The notes under the pieces were generated by a model that was not told where the DNA came from, did not search any database, and saw only the letters and a program-made list of their open reading frames with translations. This document shows positions 2,192 through 21,629 of a DNA stretch of 64,000 nucleotides, piece after piece. The DNA is taken from the NCBI GenBank assembly GCA_012511175.1, contig JAAZGO010000021.1, positions 1-64,000 of the forward strand, read 5' to 3'. The DNA is from Fastidiosipila sp. (GTDB taxonomy: Bacteria; Bacillota; Clostridia; Saccharofermentanales; DTU023). The position numbers were made by a program, and so were the translations under genes. Position 1 is the first letter of the stretch; every line of letters begins with the position of its first letter.

Positions 2192-5100
2192 ATGACTTCA
2201 TATAACCTGGTCGCAACCACCGATGAGGTCACCGTGGTCGCTGAATACAAACCGGATTACCGGGTCAGGGGTCAAGGCTACCAGTCGGAAGAAGCACTTG
2301 AAAACGAATTCATCCGGCTCTTGGTGGAGCAAGGCTATGAGTATCTTCCCATTCGGTCAGAAGATGATCTGATTCGTAATTTGAGAATTCAACTTGAGAA
2401 GCTCAATCAGTTTGAATTCACCGATAACGAATGGTCCAGGTTCTTTCAAGCATCGCTCGCATCGTCCAATGAAGGCATTGTTGAAAAAACCCGAAAGATC
2501 CAAGAAGATCATACCCAGGTCCTGAAGCGGGATGATGGGACCTCAAAAAATGTCTATTTAATCGATAAGAAGAATATCCATAACAACCGGCTCCAGGTGA
2601 TCAACCAGTATGAAGCTGAGGGCAACTACAAGAATCGCTATGATGTGACCATCTTGGTCAATGGTTTCCCTCTCATCCATGTCGAGTTAAAAAGACGGGG
2701 AGTCGCCATCCGGGAAGCCTTCAACCAAATCAACCGCTACCAAAGAGATTCTTTTTGGGCCTCCCATGGACTCTTTGAATACGTCCAGCTCTTTGTCATC
2801 TCCAATGGAACCCATACCAAGTATTATTCCAACACGACCCGGGAATCTCATATCAAAGAGCTTGTCGCCTCCAAAAGGCGACAAAGTAAAAGGGCCTCTA
2901 ATAGTTTTGAATTTACCAGTTACTGGGCCGATGCCAACAATCGAGCCATTCCTGATTTAATTGATTTCACCAAGACCTTTTTTGCCAAACATACCATCTT
3001 GAATGTGTTGACTAAATACTGTGTTTTCACCAGTGAAGACATGCTCTTGGTTATGAGGCCTTACCAGATCGCTGCCACCGAGCGAATCTTGAATCGGATC
3101 ATCGTGTCCAGCAATCATAAGCAAACAGGCACCATTGACGCAGGAGGTTATATCTGGCATACGACAGGGTCGGGCAAGACCTTAACATCATTCAAAACGG
3201 CAGTATTGGCGACCGAAATTCCTGGTATTGACAAGGTCATCTTCGTGGTTGACCGGAAAGATCTGGACTACCAGACCATGAAGGAGTACGACCGCTTTGA
3301 AAAAGGCGCGGCCAATGGCAATACCTCGACGGCGGTCTTGCAAAGGCAGCTGGAAAACAGGAACCACCGTGGGGGTTATGAGGACTACAAGATCATCGTC
3401 ACGACCATTCAGAAGCTGGATGTTTTCATCAAGAAAAATCGGAAACACGATATCTACAACCAGCATGTAGTCCTTATTTTCGATGAGTGTCATCGCTCTC
3501 AGTTTGGCCAGATGCATCGCGCCATCACCAAGCACTTCAAGCGCTATCACATTTTTGGTTTTACAGGCACCCCCATTTTCTCCTCCAATGCACCCTTAGG
3601 AGGAAATCCAGCTTTCTCTACCACAGAACAGGTCTTTGGCGAAGAGCTTCACACCTATACCATTGTTGACGCCATCAATGACGGCAATGTCTTGCCCTTT
3701 CGGATTGATTTCATCAACACCATGAAATTGCCAGATCATATTGTAGATGAAAAAGTCTATGCCATTGATCGGGAGCGGGCCTTAGCTGCACCTAAACGAA
3801 TTGGCGAGGTGGTGACATACATCTTGGATCATTTCGATCAGAAGACCAAACGTCAAAGCTCCTATACCATGACCGCCAAATGGGACGAGAAGTTAAAGGG
3901 GAGCCGTGAATGGATTGAAAGACGAGAAAAACGAATTGTTTTAGGCTTCAACTCTATTTTTGCAGTCGCCTCCATCCCTATGGCTATGAAATACTACCAA
4001 GCCCTTAAAGAAAGAATTCAGGAAAGGAATATTGATCTGAAGATCGCGACCATCTATTCTTTCGCCCCCAATGAAGAAGAGATCGAGGGTCTCCCGGTGG
4101 ATGAAACATTAGATACCAATTTCTTAGACAAACCCTCGCGCGATTTTTTAGAAGATGCCATCCAAGATTACAACCAGCTGTTTGCAACCAATTTTGATAC
4201 CAGTTCAGACAAATTCCAAAATTATTACAAAGATCTCTCTCAGCGAGTCAGGAACAGAGAGATTGACATTCTCATTGTCGTCAATATGTTTCTTACGGGT
4301 TTTGATGCCACCACCTTGAATACCTTGTGGGTGGACAAGAATCTCAGGCAGCACGGTTTGCTCCAGGCATTTTCAAGGACCAACCGGATTTTAAATTCAG
4401 TGAAAACTTTTGGTAATATTGTCTGTTTTCGGGATTTAAAAGAAGAAATGGATCGGGCCATCGCTCTTTTTGGTGACAAGGATGCCGGTGGGATCGTCCT
4501 TCTTCGAACCTACCGAGAATATTATGAGGGATACGAACAGGAGGGGCGTTGGCAGCCTGGCTACCGGGATCTTGTCGGGCAGCTGGAGAACGGCTATCCC
4601 CTGGGTCAGGTTATTCTTGGCGAATCGAAGCAAAAGGACTTCATTAAACTGTTTGGCAAGATCCTGAAAGTTAGAAACATTTTGACGTCCTTTGATGAAT
4701 TTGAAAGCGATCAGTTGCTTTCAGACAGGGATCTGCAAGATTACCAGAGCATTTACCTTGATCTTTACCAGGATATCCGTGGCAAACAGGCGGTGGACAA
4801 AGAAGATATCAATGACGATATCATTTTTGAGCTGGAGCTCGTCCGCCAGATTGAAGTCAATATTGATTACATCCTCATCCTGGTCGCCAAATACAAAGAC
4901 TCAAATTGCCAAGACAAGGACATTCTGACGGCCATTGACAAAGCCATCAATTCATCGCTTGAACTCAGGAGCAAAAAGGATCTCATCGAGAATTTCATTG
5001 CACAAGTGAACGTCGACACAAATGTTGATGAAGACTGGAAGGCCTATCTTGAGGAAAGCAAAGAAAGAGAAATTAAAGCGCTCATTAGCGAGGAAAATCT

Positions 5101-5290
5101 GAAAGAAGAAGAGACAAGGCGATTTGTGGATAACGCTTTCCGTGACGGCATCATGAGGACGACTGGTACGGACATCGATCGCTTGATGCCACCCGTTTCA
5201 AGATTTGCTTCTAACCAGCGAGCGATCAAAAAGCAAACCATCATCGATAAGCTTCTAGCTTTCTTTGAGAGGTATTTTGGATTGGGATAG
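2192..5290 (+). CDS. hsdR: Type I restriction endonuclease subunit HsdR
   Basis: This is the ATP-dependent translocase and nuclease of the type I complex; it reels in DNA from an unmethylated site and cuts at a distance. The nuclease motif is seen as Asp151 and Glu165-Leu-Lys167, followed by the Q-x3-Y element at 179-183 that is typical of HsdR nucleases. Helicase motifs follow: Walker A (TTGSGKT) near 325-331, DECH at 430-433, FTGTP near 455, and the arginine-finger motif (AFSRTNR) near 725. The length of 1,032 residues is normal. The ATG lies one base after the hsdS stop with a GAAGAAGAGG ribosome binding site inside the end of hsdS. All key residues are present, so it looks functional. Confidence 0.96.
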   Translation: MTSYNLVATTDEVTVVAEYKPDYRVRGQGYQSEEALENEFIRLLVEQGYEYLPIRSEDDLIRNLRIQLEKLNQFEFTDNEWSRFFQASLASSNEGIVEKTRKIQEDHTQVLKRDDGTSKNVYLIDKKNIHNNRLQVINQYEAEGNYKNRYDVTILVNGFPLIHVELKRRGVAIREAFNQINRYQRDSFWASHGLFEYVQLFVISNGTHTKYYSNTTRESHIKELVASKRRQSKRASNSFEFTSYWADANNRAIPDLIDFTKTFFAKHTILNVLTKYCVFTSEDMLLVMRPYQIAATERILNRIIVSSNHKQTGTIDAGGYIWHTTGSGKTLTSFKTAVLATEIPGIDKVIFVVDRKDLDYQTMKEYDRFEKGAANGNTSTAVLQRQLENRNHRGGYEDYKIIVTTIQKLDVFIKKNRKHDIYNQHVVLIFDECHRSQFGQMHRAITKHFKRYHIFGFTGTPIFSSNAPLGGNPAFSTTEQVFGEELHTYTIVDAINDGNVLPFRIDFINTMKLPDHIVDEKVYAIDRERALAAPKRIGEVVTYILDHFDQKTKRQSSYTMTAKWDEKLKGSREWIERREKRIVLGFNSIFAVASIPMAMKYYQALKERIQERNIDLKIATIYSFAPNEEEIEGLPVDETLDTNFLDKPSRDFLEDAIQDYNQLFATNFDTSSDKFQNYYKDLSQRVRNREIDILIVVNMFLTGFDATTLNTLWVDKNLRQHGLLQAFSRTNRILNSVKTFGNIVCFRDLKEEMDRAIALFGDKDAGGIVLLRTYREYYEGYEQEGRWQPGYRDLVGQLENGYPLGQVILGESKQKDFIKLFGKILKVRNILTSFDEFESDQLLSDRDLQDYQSIYLDLYQDIRGKQAVDKEDINDDIIFELELVRQIEVNIDYILILVAKYKDSNCQDKDILTAIDKAINSSLELRSKKDLIENFIAQVNVDTNVDEDWKAYLEESKEREIKALISEENLKEEETRRFVDNAFRDGIMRTTGTDIDRLMPPVSRFASNQRAIKKQTIIDKLLAFFERYFGLG

Positions 5291-5477: not shown

Positions 5478-8400
5478 TCACACCGGATCCTGGATCACAA
5501 TATATGTCGCTCTCGTCGACCCATCCGGTCGAATGAAATCAAATCCTCGCCCTATATAGATCCTTGCACGTTCACCACTTACTCTGACTACCCCCAAAAA
5601 GCGATCGTGGTCAGCCGTATGCTTGAAGTCCAGTAAATCTGGGAACCTCTGTTTAAGTTCCTGCTCGGCAGCATCCTGCCTATGCCTATCATCTGCCCGC
5701 TTTGTATGGATAATCACCTTCTCAAGTGTTTGGTGTCGAGAAGCCATTTGAATGTAGGGGCTCAGACGATTGACCAAGCGCTCACGGTCAAAAAGGTAGG
5801 GATCATGGATGGTCATCCGTTGAACAGGTTGAGTGAAGAAATCATCGAGTGTTGCTTCCAAATCAAACTGCCTGGTAGCTGACGCGTCCACATTGATGAC
5901 TTTGACATGCTGCGGTGGATTCAGCTGATCCCAGGTTATCTCACGCGCCCTCATTTGCTCCCATTGCGTCAACACAGCATGGACCGCTTCTTTGTTGGTG
6001 GAAGTCAAAAGGCTTTTGACGCCAATGGTCTGATCAAGTCCGATCACCCCATTCTGACTTTTAATGATCCTCCTTTGCTCATGATGGGGATCCATAAGGA
6101 ATGGCCAGTCCGGTATAGTTGAACGTTGATAGAGCTTCAATCCTTTGCCCATGAGAACTTGAAGATGAGACGCAATACTCATGTCCTCCGGCCTATCTCC
6201 TGGGAGTTCTTGTAAATACAGATGGATTTCACAACCTCGATTCAACAAATCGTTCAGAGTATCCATCCAGGTGTAATTTTCTCCCTTTGGATGTCCCAAA
6301 GTCATCTTAGGAATGGCCATAAAAAGCGCATGTGCTGCGTAACGGATCTTTTCATACAACCAGTTGGTTGGGTCGGACGCCACAACACGAACAGCTCCCA
6401 GTACTCCTATATCAAGAGGTTCCAGGCTGGCAATGAGTAAATCCAGAAATGCCAGGGCATCCTTCCGTTTGAGTTCATGGTGAAAATACTGATTTCCATA
6501 ATCCCGCAAACAATGGTAGCAGCTGGTATCAGGCGCGCAATCATTACAGTTGAGGATATTTCGCGCTTCTTCCAAGACAAGATCCATGTGCTCCTGAATA
6601 TTCTTCACATGTCCCGCGCCACCCGGCACATTATCGTAAAGAACAAGAGTCTGTTCCCAGTTACCTCCTATACCTCTGGGAAACAGAACACCATCGATAT
6701 CCTGTCGTTCAATCTGAAGGGCATGGCTGGCTCCGTGCAAGATGGCGTAAAGCAGGGACAGCCAAAAGGAATGATTATCCGGTGAAGGGATGGGCATATC
6801 CCGGCTTCCCTCGAATCGGATGTGCAAGGTATTGGTGTTTTGGATATGGCCGAGGGAGTATCTATCTCTAGTCCCCTTGATTCCCTCGGTCAAAGCAAAA
6901 CCTTTCAATGGAAATTCAAAACCGCTTCCGTATTTCCCCTCATTCACGAAGAGGAGCCTGCCTTTCGGATTGTAAGCCAGATAGACGAATTGATTATGTG
7001 CTTCCTCGTTCAGGCTATGCTCTGGTATCAAGGCAGACCGCATTTGTCTTGGTTCCACTTTCACATACTGTTTCGCAGGTTTTCCACTGTTTGGATCTGC
7101 TTGAAAACCTTCCGGTTCAACAAAAACCCGAACCTTAGACTTGTTGCCATAAGGTTCCGAACAGACAGAGCAAACCATCTGTGAGCGAGGTAGTGGAACG
7201 CCCGCTCCTTCGCTGATCTCAAGATATTGGCAATGTTCACATATCCTATACTCGTTTTTGGGAGGAGTGTCCCTCCAGAAAAGAGGTCGTTGGCTTGCCC
7301 ATAACCGCTTATCTGCGACCACTTCAGAGCCAGGGGCATATTCCGTTATCGCCTGGCGAAGATCCCTGGTTAAACGCAAATCTGCCCGGTCACTGACCTT
7401 CCTTGGTAACATGAGCTCAACTGTGTGGAGAGGGAAAGAATAACTTGGCAAAACGCCATTTTCACTCAAATAATTGATCAGGTAGCCTGACGTATTTCCT
7501 CGCGACCCTCTAATACGACGCAATAGATTTTCAAAGTAGGTCCTTTCTTCACCCGCTCTGTCTCGTTCTGTTGAATCAAGGCTCATATCGGCGCTTGTTT
7601 TCGCAAGCTCTTCGATCTTCTTGTAATAGTAATCTGTGATCGGCCTATAATGACCGTCATTCACCTTCTGGAGCATATTGAAAAAACCATCCAAGCCGCT
7701 CTTAATGAAGGGTCTTAAGGTCGGTGGAAAATGTATGGCATAGGTCTCAAGCTGCTGATGGATGGATCGAGTGTTTGCCTCCGCCCACTCTTTTAGATGA
7801 TGGAAATGGGGCGGCTCTGCTTGCCAGGTATCAAAAAAACCTCCACTTAAAGTAAGGCTTTCAATTGATGCTCCCTTTGCCCTGCGGTATCTCAAAAATT
7901 CACTTAAAAGAAGAGCATTGACATGCCTTTGAGCAATCAGCTCATTCTCGAGCGTGACCATGGGAACCCTGACATTTCCACTAATAATCTCAGCCGGGTT
8001 ATGATAATAGGCCTGGTCATGGGGACGATCTGATGACCAGGTCATGATGTAGGCAGTTCCACTGGTCCGCCTGCCGGCTCGTCCTGATCGCTGGCGATAA
8101 TTGGCGACCGTTGGTGGCACATTGCTCATCACGACTGTCTGTAGATCACCAAGATCGATCCCCATTTCGAAGGTTGTTGAGCAACTTAACATGTTGATAT
8201 AGCCTTCTCTAAAACGCTTCTGGTAGTCTTCCCCTTTTTTGGGGCTCAGTTGAGCGGTGTGTTCTTCAACCCGAATCGGGATGAGAGCTTGTTGGAACAA
8301 ATGGAAATAGTAATTCTCTTTCTGCTCCGTCTCGATATCGATGGCCTCCAGATCACCTCCACAATGTGGGAATGGGCAAGGTAGCGAATCCCCCCGATAG

Positions 8401-11321
8401 GAGAGGCGTTGACATTTTTGACACTTGTACCAGGTTTGGCGATTATCAAAAAAAAGCTTCCTGTGGCTTAACCGGTATCCGTCTGAGGAAGATCCCTCGA
8501 GCAAACCATTTGACTGCGTGATAAGCCAATCCCAAATAGCATTCATAACGTATATAACCGCTTCTTCCGAAGCGTCCATTCCCATTTTTTCTAATACACA
8601 TTGGACATACCGTCGCCGGCCTTGTTTGGCAGTGACTCCGATCCAGCGCCTTTCCCATTTCCTTGGACTGCCCTGTCGAATAAAGCAAGGATGACCAATG
8701 TGCGAACCAAATTCAGGTTCATCCGCCATGATGCTGTTTGGCAGGGTAATGGCTTTGTCTCCTCGAAGTCCATCGAGTAAATAATTGACGAGAATCTCGG
8801 TATCTTGGTCTGAAAACCCGATCTGTCGCGCCAAGGCTGCAAAATCAGGTCGGTTGTCCTCTTGGTAATAGAAGACGCCGGCGAGTCCAAGCGATTCGAG
8901 AGAGAGACGTCTTTTGCGGCCCACCGTGAACTCTGCTAGAATTCGCTTCGCCATCCATATAGCCGCCTCACGGCTAACTGCTTGCGAATACCTCTCTTCA
9001 TACATTTGCCAGTAATGCGAGTCTGAGTCATTTTGGAGGATTCGCTCCTCCCAGGCAATTTTTCCGCTCACTTGGCTCAGGGTAAAGAGATCCGGCGTTA
9101 ATATCTCCCCACTCCATTCGTCCGGCACCAATGATTGCTTAATGGCCTCAGGGATGATGTGGCGGTAGTTGTGGCTGTTAGCCACATCCTGCAAAAAAGC
9201 AGCGAAACGGGCTGCACCCTGACGGCTGTCATAAAATGTCAGGAGTTTTCGCCCCTCTCCAGGAAGCATGCGTTTTAACTCGTCCCCAGATGCCGGTAAC
9301 TGTCTATAAAGCTCGAAGGTTAAGTTTGCCAAAGGTCCCGTTCCTGACATAGAAATTGATGTTGCGATCTCCTCTTTGGCATGTGGTGCTTTGCTGCGAC
9401 AACGGGGGCACTCCTCGAGAGATAAGATGGGGGCCCTTCTAACCCGTATAACACCTTTACGTTCTTCTGTTTTGACATGATAGATTTGGTATATGGGGAT
9501 CGAGGGTTTAGGATCATCACAGGAACAATATCGGATTGCACGCCTACAGTTCAAACAAATTTGGATTTCCTCCGGCTCAAACGCATAAGCCACGTCGTCA
9601 GATTGCTCGTCGTCAGTGTCGATAGCTAAATCCCTTCTTTCTTCGAAGGGTTTCCAAATGAAATAATACGCCACATATCCTTCCCTTGTATGATCCTGGG
9701 CCGGAAGATACTCATTCGTGGCTTTTCGAAAATGGCTTACGAGAAATGCTTGACCGCATTCTCTGCATAAGTAAATGGGATAGACAGACGCCCCGCAACT
9801 TTCACAGCGATTAATCGGATTGCTGTAGATGCGAGACCACGGCACATCCAGGGCAGGATCCTTGCCGCTGCATTCCGGATTAATACAGGCCCACATTCCT
9901 TGAGGAGGCCGAGCAAAAATATGGTATTTGGCAGGCAAAAGGGCCAGTTGATTGGGACCTGATCTGGCGAGTGCACCAAGTTCAATGAGATGGAATAGCG
10001 CTTTCGCCTGATCCTGGTCGTCAAATTCCGGAAACAAGTAGGCTGCGGCTTCTTCAAACAAAACAGGAGCTTTTTTTTCGACTAGCCAGTTTCTCAGTTG
10101 GTTGATTTGTGCGTTGTCTGAAAGACAGGCATACAGGAAACTTGGCAGGCCCCCTTGATGTCGTTCCGCGATTTCAAGATCGTTGTCATTGATCAAGCCA
10201 ATTTCAGCCAACCACAGAGCCACTTTTTCAATATCAGCGGTTTGAGCGGCATGGTTTCCGCTACCCGGCGATTCTTTTCTTATTTCCTCCAGCATGTCTT
10301 CGAACTGAGAGTTGAGATAAGACGACGGCTCTACCCTTCGAAGAGGGGCAGAGGAGTTGTCGAAGTGCTGAATCTCTTCTTCACCAAAAATTACATCATC
10401 GGGGGAAAATTTCTCACCAAAGAGCTTACTTGCAAACTCAACAGCTTGGTTCGGGTCATCATTGGCCAAGGTCGCACTTGTCGCGACACATAGAACATCT
10501 CCCTGTTTTTTGGCCAGTCTTTGTTTGAGCCTGCGGATCAGCATAGCCACTTCAATTCCCTGGGCACCGTTGTAGGTATGGGCTTCATCTAAAACGATGT
10601 ACTTCCATAAGCCTGAATTAAAGATTAGGGCATCTTCTGGACGAATAAGCAAGTATTCCAGCATGGCGTAGTTGGTAATTAGTATCTGGGGGATTCGTCC
10701 CTGATCTCTTATCTCTTCTCTGCTGATGATCTCGTTGGGTAGTGTTTCTTCGCTTCGCTCTGCCCGATCGAGCAGTTCACCTGTGAATCTACCAAAAGTG
10801 ATGTCGGTTCCTTTCAGCAGGACCCGCAAACGTTCCATCTGATCGTTCACCAATGCATTGAGTGGATAAATCAGGATCGCACGGACACCCGGTGTTTCGT
10901 CCTCCAGTAGATCATTCAGGATTGGAATGGTAAAACATTCGGTTTTTCCACTTCCAGTCCCTGAAGACACCACGATACTCGTATTCTCATCGCAGAGTTT
11001 TCGAATCGCCTTTTCCTGGTGCGAATAAAGCGGGGCACCAAGTGGAAGCGGCTCTGGCTTGAGCAGATTGAAGCAGGAAAGGGATTTAATTTGATCCGTT
11101 AAAATTCCCTCATCAATGAGGTCATTCAGACAAGCTCCCTTGATATATGGATAGATTAATTCCAGATAGGGACCCGTGAACAGGGCACGCGGCTCCTCGA
11201 AACTCTCTCTGATCTTCCTTGCCAGTTCAGGTTCTTTTCCATCCTTGTTGGCATCAAAAGTGGTCGTCAGATAATTAACGAGAGCCTGCTTTAATGTTTG
11301 CGTAATTTTGACGGCATTCAT
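5478..11321 (-). CDS. druE: Giant DEAH helicase with DUF1998, DruE-like (Druantia type III candidate)
   Basis: This is a 1,947-residue superfamily 2 helicase. Near the N-terminus are the Q-like motif (SHQEKA) at 100, Walker A GTGSGKT at 121-127, DEAH at 245-248 and SAT at about 282. The second helicase half carries the arginine motif RQRSGRAGRR near 1075-1085, and several CxxC pairs between the halves suggest zinc binding. A DUF1998 module follows around 1500-1615, with a Cys cluster (CNDCAPDTSCYHC) like that of MrfA-type helicases. The last 170 residues look like a MIT_C/phospholipase-D-like domain (IHDPYLF, HDR, IGRGFDF). The size and DUF1998 fit DruE, reported as about 1,800-2,100 residues. 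It starts 15 bases after its partner gene, with a GGAAAGAGAG site. DISARM or a stand-alone MrfA-like repair helicase are alternatives, but they fit the size and the giant partner less well. Confidence 0.75.
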   Translation of the reverse strand: MNAVKITQTLKQALVNYLTTTFDANKDGKEPELARKIRESFEEPRALFTGPYLELIYPYIKGACLNDLIDEGILTDQIKSLSCFNLLKPEPLPLGAPLYSHQEKAIRKLCDENTSIVVSSGTGSGKTECFTIPILNDLLEDETPGVRAILIYPLNALVNDQMERLRVLLKGTDITFGRFTGELLDRAERSEETLPNEIISREEIRDQGRIPQILITNYAMLEYLLIRPEDALIFNSGLWKYIVLDEAHTYNGAQGIEVAMLIRRLKQRLAKKQGDVLCVATSATLANDDPNQAVEFASKLFGEKFSPDDVIFGEEEIQHFDNSSAPLRRVEPSSYLNSQFEDMLEEIRKESPGSGNHAAQTADIEKVALWLAEIGLINDNDLEIAERHQGGLPSFLYACLSDNAQINQLRNWLVEKKAPVLFEEAAAYLFPEFDDQDQAKALFHLIELGALARSGPNQLALLPAKYHIFARPPQGMWACINPECSGKDPALDVPWSRIYSNPINRCESCGASVYPIYLCRECGQAFLVSHFRKATNEYLPAQDHTREGYVAYYFIWKPFEERRDLAIDTDDEQSDDVAYAFEPEEIQICLNCRRAIRYCSCDDPKPSIPIYQIYHVKTEERKGVIRVRRAPILSLEECPRCRSKAPHAKEEIATSISMSGTGPLANLTFELYRQLPASGDELKRMLPGEGRKLLTFYDSRQGAARFAAFLQDVANSHNYRHIIPEAIKQSLVPDEWSGEILTPDLFTLSQVSGKIAWEERILQNDSDSHYWQMYEERYSQAVSREAAIWMAKRILAEFTVGRKRRLSLESLGLAGVFYYQEDNRPDFAALARQIGFSDQDTEILVNYLLDGLRGDKAITLPNSIMADEPEFGSHIGHPCFIRQGSPRKWERRWIGVTAKQGRRRYVQCVLEKMGMDASEEAVIYVMNAIWDWLITQSNGLLEGSSSDGYRLSHRKLFFDNRQTWYKCQKCQRLSYRGDSLPCPFPHCGGDLEAIDIETEQKENYYFHLFQQALIPIRVEEHTAQLSPKKGEDYQKRFREGYINMLSCSTTFEMGIDLGDLQTVVMSNVPPTVANYRQRSGRAGRRTSGTAYIMTWSSDRPHDQAYYHNPAEIISGNVRVPMVTLENELIAQRHVNALLLSEFLRYRRAKGASIESLTLSGGFFDTWQAEPPHFHHLKEWAEANTRSIHQQLETYAIHFPPTLRPFIKSGLDGFFNMLQKVNDGHYRPITDYYYKKIEELAKTSADMSLDSTERDRAGEERTYFENLLRRIRGSRGNTSGYLINYLSENGVLPSYSFPLHTVELMLPRKVSDRADLRLTRDLRQAITEYAPGSEVVADKRLWASQRPLFWRDTPPKNEYRICEHCQYLEISEGAGVPLPRSQMVCSVCSEPYGNKSKVRVFVEPEGFQADPNSGKPAKQYVKVEPRQMRSALIPEHSLNEEAHNQFVYLAYNPKGRLLFVNEGKYGSGFEFPLKGFALTEGIKGTRDRYSLGHIQNTNTLHIRFEGSRDMPIPSPDNHSFWLSLLYAILHGASHALQIERQDIDGVLFPRGIGGNWEQTLVLYDNVPGGAGHVKNIQEHMDLVLEEARNILNCNDCAPDTSCYHCLRDYGNQYFHHELKRKDALAFLDLLIASLEPLDIGVLGAVRVVASDPTNWLYEKIRYAAHALFMAIPKMTLGHPKGENYTWMDTLNDLLNRGCEIHLYLQELPGDRPEDMSIASHLQVLMGKGLKLYQRSTIPDWPFLMDPHHEQRRIIKSQNGVIGLDQTIGVKSLLTSTNKEAVHAVLTQWEQMRAREITWDQLNPPQHVKVINVDASATRQFDLEATLDDFFTQPVQRMTIHDPYLFDRERLVNRLSPYIQMASRHQTLEKVIIHTKRADDRHRQDAAEQELKQRFPDLLDFKHTADHDRFLGVVRVSGERARIYIGRGFDFIRPDGSTRATYIVIQDPV

Positions 11322-11336
11322 AAATTTCTCTCTTTC

Positions 11337-14300
11337 CTAAGAGGCCGCATGGATGAACAAGAGTTCCGCCCATGCGACGGCCCATTCCAACAGCTTAGGA
11401 CAACCTTTTAGAGCTGCATCAATCAAAACCATCAGGTCATTGTCGGTAAGTTCTGTTTGTCCCAGTAGCCTAGTAAAACGAATCGGTTTATAGGCTTTGG
11501 TTCGAAGGATCATAGCCAGCAATAAGACATAGCGTGGAATACTTAGAGGAAGCTCCCTTTCTCTCAAAACCTCGAGCATCCGCGAAGCTGCGGCGTAGGG
11601 GGGTACCAGATCCCCCATTTCTTCCAGATAAGAGGAAGCTTGCTCAAGACCCTGGGAACAGGTGTAAAATCTCTTGCAGTCTAATTCATCTAATTGGCGA
11701 TAAAGCTCACTGACCGCCACTTGGAAATCAAGGGTATCTTGCCAATAGACCGGCACACTCAGTTCCATGTCATCATCTTCAGGCCGAACGATCCTCTCCA
11801 TTAAGGATTGAAGATAACCGGGTTGTACGGTCTCTTCGACTCTATAGGCATGGAAAAGACGCGCCATTTTTGATTGTGAAATGGTTGCTTCGAGCGGGTC
11901 CTCATTTTGAGGGTAAACAGTATCGAGAAACTGCTCCCGAACAGAAATGTCACGACCATGCTGATGGGCTTGGACAACACTCGGAGAAAGCGCCAGGTAA
12001 GTTCCATTTCTTGATGCAACTACTTCCCCGCAACCTCTGCATTGGTATGCCGGCCAAAGATCCATAGGATCCAGTTCTCCATACTTTCCATCAACCAAGG
12101 TTTGAGGAATTCTCATCCACAGTTGTACGTAATCATTTCGATTTGATGGTTTCCAGTACGCGGCAACCCGTATTTTTTCCTCGTGTATTTTGAGATCCAC
12201 GTAACCTTTGCCGATTTGTCCCCCATACAAAGCTTGTTCAGGAAACACGTGCAATACCCTTTGGTGTGTTTTCGTTGTGAAGCGTAAGGGACACCCCAGT
12301 ATGGCCCAGGCGGGCAAGAGCTTTCTTTTTGGATCTTCCAGCTCTGGTACATCCAGCCTGTTCACTTTCTTTTGGATCCATTCAATCTGTTCCAATACAT
12401 TTTTAAGTCCGTAGCTGTCGTCAATCCACGTGAGCAGGTATGGTTGGGGAGAGGTGAGCGCCTGGAAAAGTGTTCGCGAACGATCCGCAGTCAGTTCAAC
12501 AACCATAGGATCAGCTTTTTCGGATGGATGGACGGTTTGCTCGAACGCGCGGAACGCTTGCGATACCGCCAAAATTTCTCCGCTTGCTACAATCTCCAAT
12601 AGGTAGAGGCCCGGCACCAACGTAACAGGCAGGGTCATCTCATCAACCAAGGAATGAGCCTTATAGATTGTCTCTACGGAGGTAGAAAATTCTTTGTTAC
12701 GCACTTGAATGATATATTCTCCCTCAAGATCACGGTCACGCGCTGTGGTAAACTGCAGCAATGAATTTTGATAGGAGATATTCGTGATCCTGATGGATGG
12801 TCTTTTGATGTAGCTAAATAGTTTCCACTCATCGTTTCGGATCCTAATCACAGCCGAAGGTTGAAGCAGCCTGCTTTCTTGTAGCATATCTCTTAGAACA
12901 GTTTCAGATAGGCTCACTTCGAGTTCCCCTTGAGCATTCAAGTATTCGTCCCGAGGACTTAGCCCTTCCACAAACCATGTGTATTTTTCCCGAGGCTTCC
13001 CTCGAACATGCATCTGAATGTTCTCTTCCTGGTCTGAAAAGATATGATTTTCGTCGCCTCCGCCCACGATCCAGGCTGCGACTCGATCGACCTCCCAGCA
13101 AAAATGGATAGGGTGGTTGTCCCAGTAGATATCAAAACGGCACTGCCGGCCCCGAACCATAGGCCATAAAATTTCTACCCGGTCTTCAAAATGAAATTTT
13201 TTAGTTTCTTCATTGTCATAAGGCTGGATGTCTTCAGAAGGCACCCCCTGGATCGCGATTTTTAGCGGGTGTTGACGTGAATAGCATGTAGCCGGATCAG
13301 GTTCAAATATTTCGACTGTGTCGGGCAACCAGGCAAACTGGACAGGTTCATCCAGGATTGATTTGAGATCGAGCATCAAATCAAATAAATACGCGCCGGG
13401 GTCAGCAATTATTGGGGTCAAATCAAGAATACAACCAAGATCCGTTCTTTTCAGCCAGCCACGTTGTTTTAGGTCCGTGAGGTACCATGAATCAAGAGCT
13501 TTTCCATTTCTTCGCGCCCGAAGGATGTATTTCCTAAAGGATCGGCTATCAGGGTTGCAATTCATCTCCAACAAAATTGTGGGTGAAGAGAAGATCGGAG
13601 GCAGGCCTTTTGACATATTCTTCAACTTATGATCGCCCTTGAGAAGCGGGTTAACAGAAACCAATTCAGCTGTTTTGTCAAACCTTTGCTGGCCATGCGA
13701 CACCAGGATGGCAGGAAGTTCAAGCCTGAAAAGTGCCCCATGCGTAAAACCCGCACTGTGAAGGGCTTCGGGTAAAGCTTTCAAGGCCACCTCGCAAGGC
13801 TGTCCTGACAAGTCTTCGAAGCGGGCTTCTCCTTTTGAAAAGACAATCCAAGAACCGTCTGCATCGATTACGTCACGTAACACAGCGACATTTCGGTCAT
13901 GATTCATCCGAAAATACATAATTTCATCGGGCAAGGCTGGAACCGGTCGCTCCAGGATAATATCTTCCTCCTGTTCTCGACGTGATTTGTCCAAGTTGTA
14001 GTTGTCGGATAAAAGAATGATGCGCCCGTCTAAAAGCTCCCTACCCCGAATATCTTCCGGTTCCAATTCCCAAGTATTAGCCATTCTATTATTCCAAGGG
14101 TATACGATCTTAACTAGATCCCGGTTCCGGATTTCTTTTTCTTCGGGATGGGCCCATACAAGCATATCGGGTTTTGCCGCTCCCGCTGAACGAACATTGG
14201 CTAGATGCAGATAGAGGCCTTTTTCTTCGCTCCAGCGCCAGGTTAATTGAGGTGATATCTTGCGGAGCACCGATACTTTCGAGGGGTCCATTGTTAGCTT

Positions 14301-16067
14301 GCGGTAGATCACACGCCAAAGGGATCGCTCGAGTGTCGAGTTGAGAACTTTTGCAACCAGCTCGCTTGATTCTACTTCATTGAACAAGGAAATCGCGCTC
14401 GTCATCCGAGCGATCAGCCTGGCAGCAGCCTCTCGCGTTTCGGGTTTTCGGATAAAATCTTTGAGCCTTGGATAAAAGTAATTTAAAGATTTTTCTGTTT
14501 CCAGGATCTTTTGCAGCTGCTCTGGCGGATAGTGCATCAGGGATTTGAAATGGTCAACCAACCAATCGACGAAGGGCTCGTGAAGATAACGCGGAATAAT
14601 TGCGTGCTGGTAAACGGGGCGCACAACATCGCCTTGGCTGTCGATATCGAAGGATAATCCCACTATCTCCATCAGGTAGTTGCGTGCGAATCGAAAGAGT
14701 TTTCGACTCACAATCTCAAAGTATTGCTGATCATCTCGATCCCACACTTGTTTGGCATAGGGCCCCCAGAAGGCTCTGGAATCCGTCTCTGAATATCTGG
14801 CAAAGAAAACCATACTGATCACGAATAGAGCTGGAAGGGAGTGCCTTGGATCAGGTTTTCCCTTGGATTCAGTTTTTTCTTTCAGATAAGTGACAAATCT
14901 TTCGAAAAATTGCCTCGAAATTGGCAACTCTCCTATGTAATCAAAGCGCTCAAGAGACTTTAGAAATAGTGCTTCCAGTTTGGGAATTTGTAGGAGCAAG
15001 AATTCTCCAAAATCGTCTGTTTCTAGCTTCACCAAAAACGTCTCTATTTCCTGATCGCCCAAATTAATCATTTCTGGCCGGAGAACCAGCCGTTCAAAAG
15101 GGCAAGGTTCGCGAGCTCTCAAAGCTCCGAGAGCAGGATCTCCAACATCTGAAATATCTCCCGTAAGATCGTGATCGAATGTGACGGTCGATTCAGAAGG
15201 TAGAGTATCAGCGCTCGGCTCTCGGGTTTTCCAGGAAACTGATAAATCAGTTGTGGTGGCAGCTTCTACAACCGTCCCTGGATCGTCAAACAGAGTACCT
15301 TCGAGGAAAGTGTTTTGTCTTCCCAAGTCTCCGGGATCCCGTAGAATGCTGATTTGCTCGAGGTTGTACCTTCTTTCAATTAAAGAGTTATGGGCAGTTT
15401 TAATGACCTCACTAAAGGTTGTGCTAGTCGATAAGGTATCCTCCATATCACTGTGCTCATACGCAGATTCCATGCCCGCAACTCTTAGGTCATGAAGCTG
15501 AGAATCATCTTCCACTATTGGATCAGAGTTGTCGGCTTCTGAATTATCTTTGTCCAGCGGCTCAGACGCCTTTTCGGGAAACGGTTTTTCCGTAAGAGTG
15601 GCGAGGTCGCCATCCGCTGGATCGTGTGCCCGCTCTTCTGTTTGATCAGTCTCAAGCGTAGATTCAACGGCTTCCTGGTTGACTGCGTCGTGGCGTACGT
15701 CTTCACACACAACTTCCTCTCTTATGGTGCCATCTGCCTTAGAAAAAAGGATGGTAGTAGGCAGATCCCTATGTTGCTTCTTTGTCTCTCCTCCAGAGAA
15801 TAGTTCTATGGTGCTCAGCTGTTCCTCCGAATTTTGCCTCAGCCTCTCTTGTAGAAAATCTTCTTCTACATGCAAACGCTGGGCTGCTCTTCCAAAATTT
15901 GGTATCGATATTTGCTTTGATTGTTCCCTGAATGTGGAAAGATGCGTTCGAGTTCGTAAGTTGGGCGACTTCTTAATGGGATCCGAGGGAGGATCTTTCG
16001 GAGTCATCTTTCTAGAAAATGTGATTAATACAGACAGAAGTTTTCTTAGATAGGTCAAGAGTCTCAT
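11337..16067 (-). CDS. druH: Giant protein of unknown fold upstream of the helicase, DruH-like candidate
   Basis: This 1,576-residue protein has no domain I recognise. A basic, weakly hydrophobic N-terminus (about 1-35) is followed by a long acidic, low-complexity stretch (about 70-300, rich in D, E, S and T) that is likely disordered. The rest is folded-looking, with many aromatic and beta-type segments. A CxxC pair (YQCRGCGEV) lies at about residue 1352. The C-terminal 150 residues look helical. The ATG at 16067 has an AGGGTGG site just upstream. The helicase gene follows after 15 bases, so the two are surely co-transcribed. The assignment to DruH rests on the two-giant-gene layout and on the partner's identity, not on recognised motifs; it could be another helicase-partner family. 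Confidence 0.5.
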   Translation of the reverse strand: MRLLTYLRKLLSVLITFSRKMTPKDPPSDPIKKSPNLRTRTHLSTFREQSKQISIPNFGRAAQRLHVEEDFLQERLRQNSEEQLSTIELFSGGETKKQHRDLPTTILFSKADGTIREEVVCEDVRHDAVNQEAVESTLETDQTEERAHDPADGDLATLTEKPFPEKASEPLDKDNSEADNSDPIVEDDSQLHDLRVAGMESAYEHSDMEDTLSTSTTFSEVIKTAHNSLIERRYNLEQISILRDPGDLGRQNTFLEGTLFDDPGTVVEAATTTDLSVSWKTREPSADTLPSESTVTFDHDLTGDISDVGDPALGALRAREPCPFERLVLRPEMINLGDQEIETFLVKLETDDFGEFLLLQIPKLEALFLKSLERFDYIGELPISRQFFERFVTYLKEKTESKGKPDPRHSLPALFVISMVFFARYSETDSRAFWGPYAKQVWDRDDQQYFEIVSRKLFRFARNYLMEIVGLSFDIDSQGDVVRPVYQHAIIPRYLHEPFVDWLVDHFKSLMHYPPEQLQKILETEKSLNYFYPRLKDFIRKPETREAAARLIARMTSAISLFNEVESSELVAKVLNSTLERSLWRVIYRKLTMDPSKVSVLRKISPQLTWRWSEEKGLYLHLANVRSAGAAKPDMLVWAHPEEKEIRNRDLVKIVYPWNNRMANTWELEPEDIRGRELLDGRIILLSDNYNLDKSRREQEEDIILERPVPALPDEIMYFRMNHDRNVAVLRDVIDADGSWIVFSKGEARFEDLSGQPCEVALKALPEALHSAGFTHGALFRLELPAILVSHGQQRFDKTAELVSVNPLLKGDHKLKNMSKGLPPIFSSPTILLEMNCNPDSRSFRKYILRARRNGKALDSWYLTDLKQRGWLKRTDLGCILDLTPIIADPGAYLFDLMLDLKSILDEPVQFAWLPDTVEIFEPDPATCYSRQHPLKIAIQGVPSEDIQPYDNEETKKFHFEDRVEILWPMVRGRQCRFDIYWDNHPIHFCWEVDRVAAWIVGGGDENHIFSDQEENIQMHVRGKPREKYTWFVEGLSPRDEYLNAQGELEVSLSETVLRDMLQESRLLQPSAVIRIRNDEWKLFSYIKRPSIRITNISYQNSLLQFTTARDRDLEGEYIIQVRNKEFSTSVETIYKAHSLVDEMTLPVTLVPGLYLLEIVASGEILAVSQAFRAFEQTVHPSEKADPMVVELTADRSRTLFQALTSPQPYLLTWIDDSYGLKNVLEQIEWIQKKVNRLDVPELEDPKRKLLPAWAILGCPLRFTTKTHQRVLHVFPEQALYGGQIGKGYVDLKIHEEKIRVAAYWKPSNRNDYVQLWMRIPQTLVDGKYGELDPMDLWPAYQCRGCGEVVASRNGTYLALSPSVVQAHQHGRDISVREQFLDTVYPQNEDPLEATISQSKMARLFHAYRVEETVQPGYLQSLMERIVRPEDDDMELSVPVYWQDTLDFQVAVSELYRQLDELDCKRFYTCSQGLEQASSYLEEMGDLVPPYAAASRMLEVLRERELPLSIPRYVLLLAMILRTKAYKPIRFTRLLGQTELTDNDLMVLIDAALKGCPKLLEWAVAWAELLFIHAAS

Positions 16068-19886: not shown

Positions 19887-20231
19887 TTAAAGGCAGATCA
19901 AGCGCTTTGCCGAGGCCATGACCTCCGACAGGGTCTGCATGTTGGAAACAGAACCCACCTCCGGTTCTCCCAGCTCAAAGTAGTTGAGACAGGTGCCGCA
20001 GGACAGAAGCCGTGTTCCCTTGCATTCCAAGGTTCTCAGATCCTCCAGGACCGTGGAGTCTTTGGTCGTCAGCCGGACCCCCGCATTGATAAAGAGCAGG
20101 CAGTCGGGTGTGCGGGGCAGGTCGTCCAGGGTGGCCAGATAGCTTTTGATCAGAATCTGGCCCAGCTCCGGGGATCCCTGTCCCATGGTGTCACTGCTTA
20201 TCAAAATGACCAGCTCAGTTTCTTTTTTCAT
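19887..20231 (-). CDS. YedF-like DsrE family protein lacking the TusA domain
   Basis: This 114-residue protein matches the C-terminal half of YedF (sulfurtransferase-like, selenium metabolism). The DsrE-type fold is suggested by LVILISSDTMGQGSPELG at the start, the FINAGV strand, and the Cys pair in LLSCGTCLNYF. Full YedF proteins begin with a TusA/SirA domain carrying a CPxP motif; here the gene starts directly with the DsrE part, and the upstream gene does not supply a TusA domain. The ATG overlaps the stop of the DUF3343 gene by four bases, with GGAGGATGAAT upstream. It is likely a carrier or regulator of reactive sulfur or selenium; the precise role is unknown. Confidence 0.8.
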   Translation of the reverse strand: MKKETELVILISSDTMGQGSPELGQILIKSYLATLDDLPRTPDCLLFINAGVRLTTKDSTVLEDLRTLECKGTRLLSCGTCLNYFELGEPEVGSVSNMQTLSEVMASAKRLICL

Positions 20232-20512
20232 CCTGTCGATTCATCCTCCTGGGTGGTAATGGGGTGTGGCAGATAGATGATCCGTTTGCCCTCCAAAGTC
20301 TTCTGATAGACCTCGATCCCGCCGATCAGACGGCTTTGGAGGATCCGTAGGGCCTCTTCAAGTTCTTCGGCCTCGACCCTCAGACAAATCCCGCAACCCA
20401 CATTGATCTGACCGGGCAGGGGCATGACCCGGATCTTCAGTTTGGCGTCCATGAGCAGGCGTTCGGCCCGGATGGCCTGACTGGTGCTGGTGAAGGCAAT
20501 GAGGTACTCCAT
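20228..20512 (-). CDS. DUF3343 small protein (putative Se/S carrier)
   Basis: This small protein of about 94 residues belongs to DUF3343. It has an N-terminal strand with STSQAIRAERLL, a PGQINVGCGICLRV segment with the conserved Cys pair, then a helix. Members occur beside YedF and cysteine desulfurase genes in selenium-linked loci and are thought to carry Se or S. The ATG at 20512 starts one base after the desulfurase stop. A TTG at 20524 would sit too close to the GGAGG site. The protein is likely cytoplasmic. The function is inferred from context and not proven. Confidence 0.82.
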   Translation of the reverse strand: MEYLIAFTSTSQAIRAERLLMDAKLKIRVMPLPGQINVGCGICLRVEAEELEEALRILQSRLIGGIEVYQKTLEGKRIIYLPHPITTQEDESTG

Positions 20513-20513
20513 C

Positions 20514-21629
20514 TTAACCGGCAATCCTCCTTAAGGCCTTGATGCCCTGGTCAATCTCCTCTTCCGTATTGAACCGGGAGAAGGAAAAGCGGACCATGCC
20601 CTGTTCTTCAGTCTTAAAATGCTGATGGATCAGGGGGGCGCAGTGGGCACCTGCCCGGGTGGCGATTTGGTCCTCTTCCCACAGCCGGAGGGCCAGATCG
20701 GATGAATCCATGCCTTCCAGGGTCAGGGATACGACGGCCAGCCGGGCTTTGGAAAAGTCGCCATAGACGGTGATCTTTTCCAGATCCCGGATACCTTCCT
20801 GGAACCTTTCGGTTAACCGGCTTTCTCTTTCCTGGATGCTGGCAAGCCCGGTTCGGTTGATGAACTCCACCCCTTTGAGAAGCCCGAAGAGGCCGTGACT
20901 GTTCTGGGTGCCCGCCTCAAAGACATCCGGCATGCGGGTGGCCTGATGCCGCTCAAAACTGTCGGTACCGGCGCCCCCCGTCTTGACCAGGGGGAAGGGC
21001 CGGTCTTCTGCGGCGATGATGCCGCCTGTCCCCTGGGGGCCAAAAAGGCCTTTGTGTCCGGTAAAACAGAAGATGTCGGCCATGTCGGCGGTCACGGGAA
21101 TGGAACCCAATGTCTGGGCAATATCCAGGATCAAGGTGATGCCGTGCGCACGGCACCAGCTGTAGATGGCTCTTGCGTCATTGATATTGCCGGTCACATT
21201 GGAGCCGTGGTTGCAGACCATGAAGCGGGTATTGGGCCGGACCAGGCGGTCCAGGTCGTCCAAGAGCAGATTGCCCTTGTCGTCACAGCCCAGGATCCGG
21301 AGGTCACAGCCGGTAAGGTAAAGCGGCCGGAGGACCGAATTGTGATCCGTAACCGTGCTAATGACTGAATCCTGTGATTTGATCAAACTGCGGATGACCA
21401 GGTTGAGGCCCTCGGTGGCCGAAGAGGTAAAGGCTACCTGAAGGGGATTGTCCAGGCCGATCAGTTGAGCGATGCCTGCCCGGGCATCGAAGACGGCCCG
21501 GCCGGACTCCATGGCGGCGTCGTAAAAGGACCGCCCCGAATTGCCAAAATGATCAATGGCGTACCGGACGGCCTGTCCCACCTCCGGGGGCCGGGTCAGG
21601 CTGGTCGCCGCGTTGTCAAAGTAGATCAT
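20514..21629 (-). CDS. Cysteine desulfurase-like class V aminotransferase
   Basis: This is a PLP-dependent enzyme of 371 residues. PLP lysine motif: FTGHKGLFGPQG, about residues 192-203. Active-site cysteine: AGAHCAPLIH, near residue 332. It should release sulfur, or selenium from selenocysteine, as a protein-bound persulfide. An N-terminal SSATEGLNLVI cofactor loop and VCNHGSNVTG are typical of the family. The ATG has a CCGGAG site. Together with the DUF3343 and YedF-like genes downstream in the same operon, this suggests a selenium/sulfur transfer set rather than iron-sulfur cluster assembly, since no iscU or sufU is near. No selD or selA is in the window. Confidence 0.85.
   Translation of the reverse strand: MIYFDNAATSLTRPPEVGQAVRYAIDHFGNSGRSFYDAAMESGRAVFDARAGIAQLIGLDNPLQVAFTSSATEGLNLVIRSLIKSQDSVISTVTDHNSVLRPLYLTGCDLRILGCDDKGNLLLDDLDRLVRPNTRFMVCNHGSNVTGNINDARAIYSWCRAHGITLILDIAQTLGSIPVTADMADIFCFTGHKGLFGPQGTGGIIAAEDRPFPLVKTGGAGTDSFERHQATRMPDVFEAGTQNSHGLFGLLKGVEFINRTGLASIQERESRLTERFQEGIRDLEKITVYGDFSKARLAVVSLTLEGMDSSDLALRLWEEDQIATRAGAHCAPLIHQHFKTEEQGMVRFSFSRFNTEEEIDQGIKALRRIAG

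Follow-up and report, generated by a model that had tools for sequence, protein, structure and literature searches.

The stretch of Fastidiosipila sp. DNA analysed here (the window; 64,000 nucleotides of contig JAAZGO010000021.1) carries two adjacent giant genes which we read, with a probability of about 0.85, as a divergent two-gene Druantia type III system composed of a DruH-like sensor (11337–16067) and a DruE helicase (5478–11321). The reading is based on the identity of the helicase, on a chain of profile matches that leads from its partner to DruH through a family of DruE-adjacent proteins, and on the DruH-like predicted fold of the partner. We consider the pair most likely to provide immunity against viruses in the manner of Druantia type III.

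Both genes lie on the minus strand, the partner gene (P0002; 11337–16067, 1,576 aa) upstream of the druE-like gene (P0001; 5478–11321, 1,947 aa), which is the druH–druE order of Druantia III, and both frames are uninterrupted and intact over 10.6 kb. The 15-nt spacer between them (11322–11336, minus strand) holds the ribosome-binding-like GAAAGAGAG, which suggests that P0002 and P0001 form one operon. On the plus strand, hsdM (6–1013) and hsdS (991–2190), both recognised by PADLOC/Pfam, and hsdR (2192–5290) converge on the 3′ end of the helicase gene, with hsdR as its immediate neighbour, and represent a separate type I R-M system; hsdM lacks its 5′ end because the window begins at a contig end. 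An earlier, sequence-only reading of this DNA had described two giant genes 15 bases apart that converge on hsdMSR, and its coordinates, strands and frames were all as claimed. An M28 peptidase and a DNA polymerase IV are further neighbours in the window by the PADLOC/Pfam scan, and the GC content of the island that holds the pair is 0.43–0.49, compared with 0.52–0.60 in the flank. Within hsdS (around 1480–1545), the run ELTAELTAELTAELTA between the two HsdS halves resembles the TAEL repeats that determine how long the recognition spacer is in EcoR124-type enzymes. Beyond the pair, at 19887–21629, a YedF-like selenium-metabolism protein (NCBIfam above cut-off) adjoins what its sequence indicates to be a cysteine desulfurase-like protein, suggesting that the host uses selenium.

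P0001 is a YprA-family SF2 helicase with a PLD-like tail, and its profile ranking identifies it as a DruE. The top PADLOC profile is DruE3 (2.2e-221), with DruE1 second (4.5e-201) and other DruE models next, whereas the DpdJ, DrmA and MrfA-type families lie far below in the PADLOC, Pfam and NCBIfam searches. Pfam DEAD, Helicase_C and MZB all score far above their cut-offs, MZB being the MrfA Zn-binding domain, alias DUF1998 or HAR. The DEAD/DEAH RecA1 domain (aa 100–288; 10458–11024, minus strand) contains SGTGSGKT (Walker A) at 120, DEAH at 245 and SAT at 282; the Helicase_C RecA2 domain (aa 1008–1085; 8067–8300, minus strand) contains QRSGRAGR at aa 1077; and the Pfam MZB/DUF1998 zinc-binding domain follows at aa 1525–1605 (6507–6749, minus strand). 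The protein has nine CxxC pairs. Its closest PDB entry is 9tu7 (2.2e-97), deposited as a DEAD/DEAH box helicase, which we read as the E. coli Druantia III DruE because it shares a deposition series with DruH 9tud; the match to YprA (6znp) is weaker (2e-30). Identity to the E. coli DruE is 26%. The sequence-only reading had described a DEAH/DUF1998 helicase of 1,947 residues and had named a best match outside DruE, such as DrmA or MrfA, as evidence against it. The motifs, domains and length stand and the DruE profiles lead, but the C-terminal PLD-like tail (~1632–1947) was absent from that description.

This tandem PLD-like tail (aa 1632–1947; 5481–6428, minus strand) is assigned from hhalign, a predicted model, Foldseek and conservation. 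By hhalign it matches the tails of E. coli-type III-A DruEs (91.8%, 7e-7) and of cyanobacterial DruEs (98.7%, 2e-16). In Foldseek its model (pLDDT 85.8) matches PLD3/PLD4, and the last domain matches the PLD-like domain of MITD1 (TM 0.75, 2.6 Å). Residues D1840, Y1842, H1905, R1907 and G1926 are identical in all 18 DruE tails compared, that of E. coli among them. The histidine signature of the tail is HxR, and that of the textbook PLD is HxK. The accessible text of PMC13192584 reports in vitro cleavage of long DNA by the E. coli DruE and names no PLD-domain point mutant, so it is by analogy that we infer a catalytic role in DNA cleavage for the PLD-like tail of P0001. The P0001 clade helps to date the PLD tail, which III-A DruEs, cyanobacterial DruEs and the P0001 lineage carry and which most members of the large branch sister to that lineage lack. 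Within the P0001 clade, the DruE of locus L060 (8932–13872; 46% identical) ends at 1,646 aa without a PLD tail although the contig continues, and the tail can therefore be lost.

In agreement with the sequence-only reading, which had recognised no motif in the partner, P0002 gave no match in the PADLOC, Pfam, NCBIfam or PDB searches (threshold E ≤ 1). Plasmids, GTDB contigs and 390 other genomes of the class likewise yielded no match when scanned with the single protein, suggesting an orphan, an interpretation that was overturned by searching the neighbours of related DruEs. The DruEs nearest to P0001 belong to Anaerolineae (Chloroflexota), and the six with upstream DNA are 41–61% identical to it (L058, 61%; L060, 46%; L064, 46%; L059, 44%; L124, 42%; L061, 41%). 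A P0002 homologue lies immediately upstream of each of the six (phmmer, E 0 to 8e-48). Since collinear homologues of both genes occur in other phyla, chance is excluded. Scans of IMG/VR with DruE and with DruH as queries returned nothing.

In Bacillota, DruEs of about 1,600 aa have a directly upstream ORF of about 1,300–1,900 aa, and all of these ORFs belong to one family, named GUP here. Profile–profile comparison links the P0002 clade to the GUP family (99.7%, 2.1e-26 over 757 columns) and to actinobacterial GUP (9e-13 over 1,039 columns), and a GUP profile built without the P0002 clade matches P0002 at 1.1e-12. GUP is a large family of DruE-adjacent proteins that spans Bacillota, Chloroflexota, Actinomycetota and archaea. 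Scanning GTDB with an alignment of DruEs yielded 80 loci. Upstream sequence is available for 72 of the DruEs in these loci, and in 62 of the 72 a GUP overlaps the DruE or lies at most 200 bp away; the profile behind this count was partly built from the same partners, most of which a Bacillota-only profile already detects. GUP matches occur in 35 of 399 Bacillota genomes, and a comparison of positions places DruE alongside in 29 of these 35. The matches without an adjacent DruE lie at contig ends (L156, L158 and L160, where L158 represents a genome, G745, whose pieces are scattered over several short contigs), are remnants (L155 and L157) or, in L159, a clear solo. Partner homologues that routinely occur without the helicase would have spoken against the sequence-only reading; with 29 of 35 next to DruE and one clear solo, they do not occur in this way.

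PADLOC 2.0.0 called none of the 12 GUP-branch partners scanned (from Bacillota, Chloroflexota, Actinomycetota and an archaeon, P0002 included) a DruH; in a control, the PADLOC DruH models recovered the E. coli protein (E = 0). No match emerged when P0002 was compared with the E. coli protein as single sequences by BLAST/phmmer. Profile–profile comparison of GUP with eight E. coli-type DruHs gave a match of 94.8% (5.2e-8, collinear over 332 columns), for which two reversed and ten column-shuffled decoys all remained at or below 0.1%, and the actinobacterial GUP subset matched DruH at 93.2% (3.1e-7). Compared directly with DruH by hhalign, the P0002 clade scores an insignificant 0.0099, and the link runs only through intermediates. 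The N-terminal domains alone of the GUP family and E. coli DruH aligned at 5e-4, with E. coli W88 and G136-G137-L-P139 falling on the conserved W and HGGIP of the family. According to the accessible text of PMC13192584, defence is lost in the E. coli DruH mutants W88A and G136A/G137A, and the residue identities and numbers given there fit the E. coli DruH sequence used here exactly. P0002 retains W434, H488 and P492, with A-I in place of the E. coli G-G. By transitive profile homology, the direct comparison being not significant, we identify P0002 as a very divergent DruH. The sequence-only reading had proposed that a DruE match without a DruH match would point to a new partner family. The PADLOC search of the helicase came out in favour of DruE and that of the partner returned no DruH, which would point to such a family, but the profile–profile comparison argues for a divergent DruH; the overall proposal of a Druantia type III-like, possibly divergent pair is upheld by the DruE3 best profile, the remote homology of the partner to DruH and the druH–druE order.

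The homology of P0002 to its relatives starts at about aa 360. The N-terminal extension before it (aa 1–360; 14988–16067, minus strand) is weakly conserved and acidic-rich and is not found in most relatives. It is followed by an N-terminal helical domain (aa 360–593; 14289–14990, minus strand) with W434 and H488-A-I-I-P492, and by tandem Ig-like beta-sandwich domains (about aa 606–1176; 12540–14252, minus strand) assigned from the AF2 model, Foldseek and a profile match, via GUP, to the central region of DruH. Clade alignment indicates a putative zinc site, C1343-x-x-C1346...H1368-x-H1370 (11958–12041, minus strand), whose CxxC occurs in six of seven clade members, the paired histidines being less regular. 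The AF2 model of residues 377–1576 (mean pLDDT 78.8, pTM 0.55) shows the order N-terminal helical domain, Ig-like sandwiches, further beta region and C-terminal helices, the last at aa 1446–1573 (11349–11732, minus strand). The published layout of DruH is a helical domain, tandem Ig-like domains and C-terminal helices, and the predicted fold of P0002 corresponds to it; DruH is also described with ATP-site residues R1064/K1067 and nuclease residues. Foldseek matched the P0002 model only to generic Ig/FN3 arrays at low TM, and the DruH structure 9tud was absent among the matches from a library whose entries stop at April 2026.

The partner might be an unrelated large Ig-domain protein which replaces DruH beside DruE and acts as a different sensor. 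The missing DruH profile match in P0002, the insignificant direct comparison with DruH and the commonness of Ig-like arrays, which could align by fold type, are all consistent with such a replacement. However, the GUP–DruH match is collinear at 95% probability where decoys fail, the N-terminal helical domain, which is not Ig-like, also aligns with its functional residues matched, and the gene order, adjacency and three-part layout are those of DruH–DruE. We thus regard an unrelated sensor as unlikely and retain the divergent DruH.

A role outside immunity, as an MrfA/YprA-type genome-maintenance (repair) operon, would be in line with the presence of repair helicases in the YprA family (accessible text of PMC12458937). 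However, P0001 scores as a DruE rather than as MrfA, and its size, PLD-like tail and giant partner are features of the defence branch by the same text. MrfA/YprA repair helicases are about 750 aa with only the helicase and DUF1998 and have no giant partner, whereas P0001, at 1,947 aa, has defence-branch insertions and a tail. The distribution is patchy, P0002 being unmatched in the 390 other class genomes with its nearest kin in another phylum, and the kin lie in defence islands: L058 has a type I methylase and BrxC, L061 has pPIWI-RE genes, and L064 has HEC-05 and a type III R-M system. A repair operon is therefore very improbable. That the pair is a decayed, non-functional copy, as the remnants known at L155 and L157 might suggest, is scarcely credible, since both frames and every helicase motif are intact, the invariant PLD-tail residues are retained, and the nearest kin is about 60% identical over the full length. 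DISARM/DrmA, DpdJ, MrfA and ARMADA were rejected by profile rank and gene content; for DISARM, there is no separate DrmB among the type I R-M, M28 peptidase and DNA polymerase IV neighbours, and DUF1998 is fused within P0001. Nor did PADLOC find DruABCD, DruM/F/G or DruL among the neighbouring ORFs P0002–P0008, as Druantia I, II and IV would have.

In a FastTree phylogeny of 105 DruEs (midpoint root, simple model), P0001 groups with the six Anaerolineae DruEs in a seven-member clade (support 100). Next to this clade is an 82-row branch (support 99) of mostly tail-less DruEs from Bacillota, Chloroflexota, Actinomycetota, archaea and others, while the III-A DruEs of E. coli type, together with type I and cyanobacterial DruEs, are found on the opposite side. 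The P0001 clade is thus placed between III-A and the III-B-like branch, to which P0001 is sister (SH 97–100). Because the closest relatives of the pair belong to Chloroflexota and the island GC is below that of the flank, recent transfer of the pair into its Bacillota host is likely.

We note several likenesses and differences between the pair and known type III systems. With E. coli Druantia III-A (DruH of the YjiT family, 9tud; DruE, 9tu7–9tuc) it shares two touching genes in the same order, a DruE with SF2 core, zinc modules, DUF1998 and a tandem PLD tail with invariant D-Y, H-x-R and G, and a DruH of helical, tandem Ig-like and helical layout. However, P0001 is only 26% identical and sits in another clade, and P0002 is invisible to DruH profiles, with a 360-aa N-terminal extension, the clade-specific CxxC...HxH and AIIP for GGLP. 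The III-B or "Druantia type III-like" branch, reported in 2025 (PMC12458937), has a partner in the same family and is sister to P0001, whereas its DruEs (about 1,540–1,690 aa) mostly lack the C-terminal nuclease domain which the P0001 clade retains; the branch found here is equated with the published III-B by description alone, on the accessible text of that paper. The M. smegmatis DruH–DruE (PMC13316683) is likewise a pair of giant genes (1,132 and 1,667 aa), called type III and active against phages, whereas its published residue positions disagree with the mycobacterial members found here, for which the residue fingerprint is no better than shuffles and the conserved-residue offsets do not fit. 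It may thus be another lineage.

We see about an even chance that the pair and its Anaerolineae kin constitute a third Druantia III lineage, combining a III-A-like PLD-tailed DruE with a zinc-binding sensor from a DruH branch that otherwise accompanies tail-less DruEs and that, across several phyla and archaea, is unseen by current catalogues. What is new, judged from the profile chain and alignments, is that the partner family of the III-B-like branch, not described in the accessible main text of PMC12458937, is assigned as a DruH missed by PADLOC, and that the window clade mixes III-A and III-B features with its own putative CxxC...HxH site (C1343, C1346, H1368, H1370). Surveys of type III rely on PADLOC calls requiring DruE and DruH and place the system mainly in Proteobacteria (accessible text of PMC13192584). 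With none of the 12 GUP-branch partners called DruH, the two-gene system is therefore probably far more widespread than counted, and Druantia III-type immunity is probably under-counted. Divergent sensors with the same neighbour and overall fold offer material for asking what DruH targets and which of its surface residues are key.

The most likely mechanism for the pair is carried over by homology from E. coli Druantia III, whose DruE is described in the accessible text of PMC13192584 as a helicase that forms dimers, loads onto 3′ single strands and cuts long DNA. The DruH-like protein would recognise a phage component, probably a virion protein, via its Ig-like domains and N-terminal helical surface, and would change its assembly state. 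DruE would then load where phage replication intermediates expose 3′ single strands, its YprA-type SF2 motor moving under the OB/DUF1998 canopy and unwinding the DNA. Finally, the tandem PLD-like module would cut DNA while DruE assembles on long single strands, and a DruH dimer may nick DNA as well. Work on M. smegmatis indicates a tail protein as the trigger, and abortive infection (PMC13316683).

Several related loci depart from the two-gene arrangement. At L155 (7273–10353) and L157 (7770–8171), the opening part of a DruH-like gene is joined to DruE helicase or DUF1998 parts, fusions such as would be left by internal deletions. In the Anaerolineae locus L059 (JANTGY010000001.1, 110–8803), a single open frame of 2,897 aa adjoins DruE; it encodes a type ISP restriction enzyme (N6_Mtase and Type_ISP_C), two RNA-polymerase-alpha-CTD-like repeats and a sigma-70 region 4 domain, and after these a full DruH-like protein, an apparent R-M/Druantia fusion. 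In cyanobacteria, PLD-tailed DruEs of about 2,100 aa (L002, 4122–14318; L003, 4364–14240; L004, 3513–14351; also L114, L126 and L130) stand directly after a gene of about 310 aa, which is itself preceded by one of about 900 aa, possibly a three-gene variant. The annotation of the gene of about 900 aa is chromosome segregation ATPase-like (in L003, hypothetical), and in L114, L126 and L130 the first gene matches the GUP/DruH profile at 2e-15 to 3e-26.
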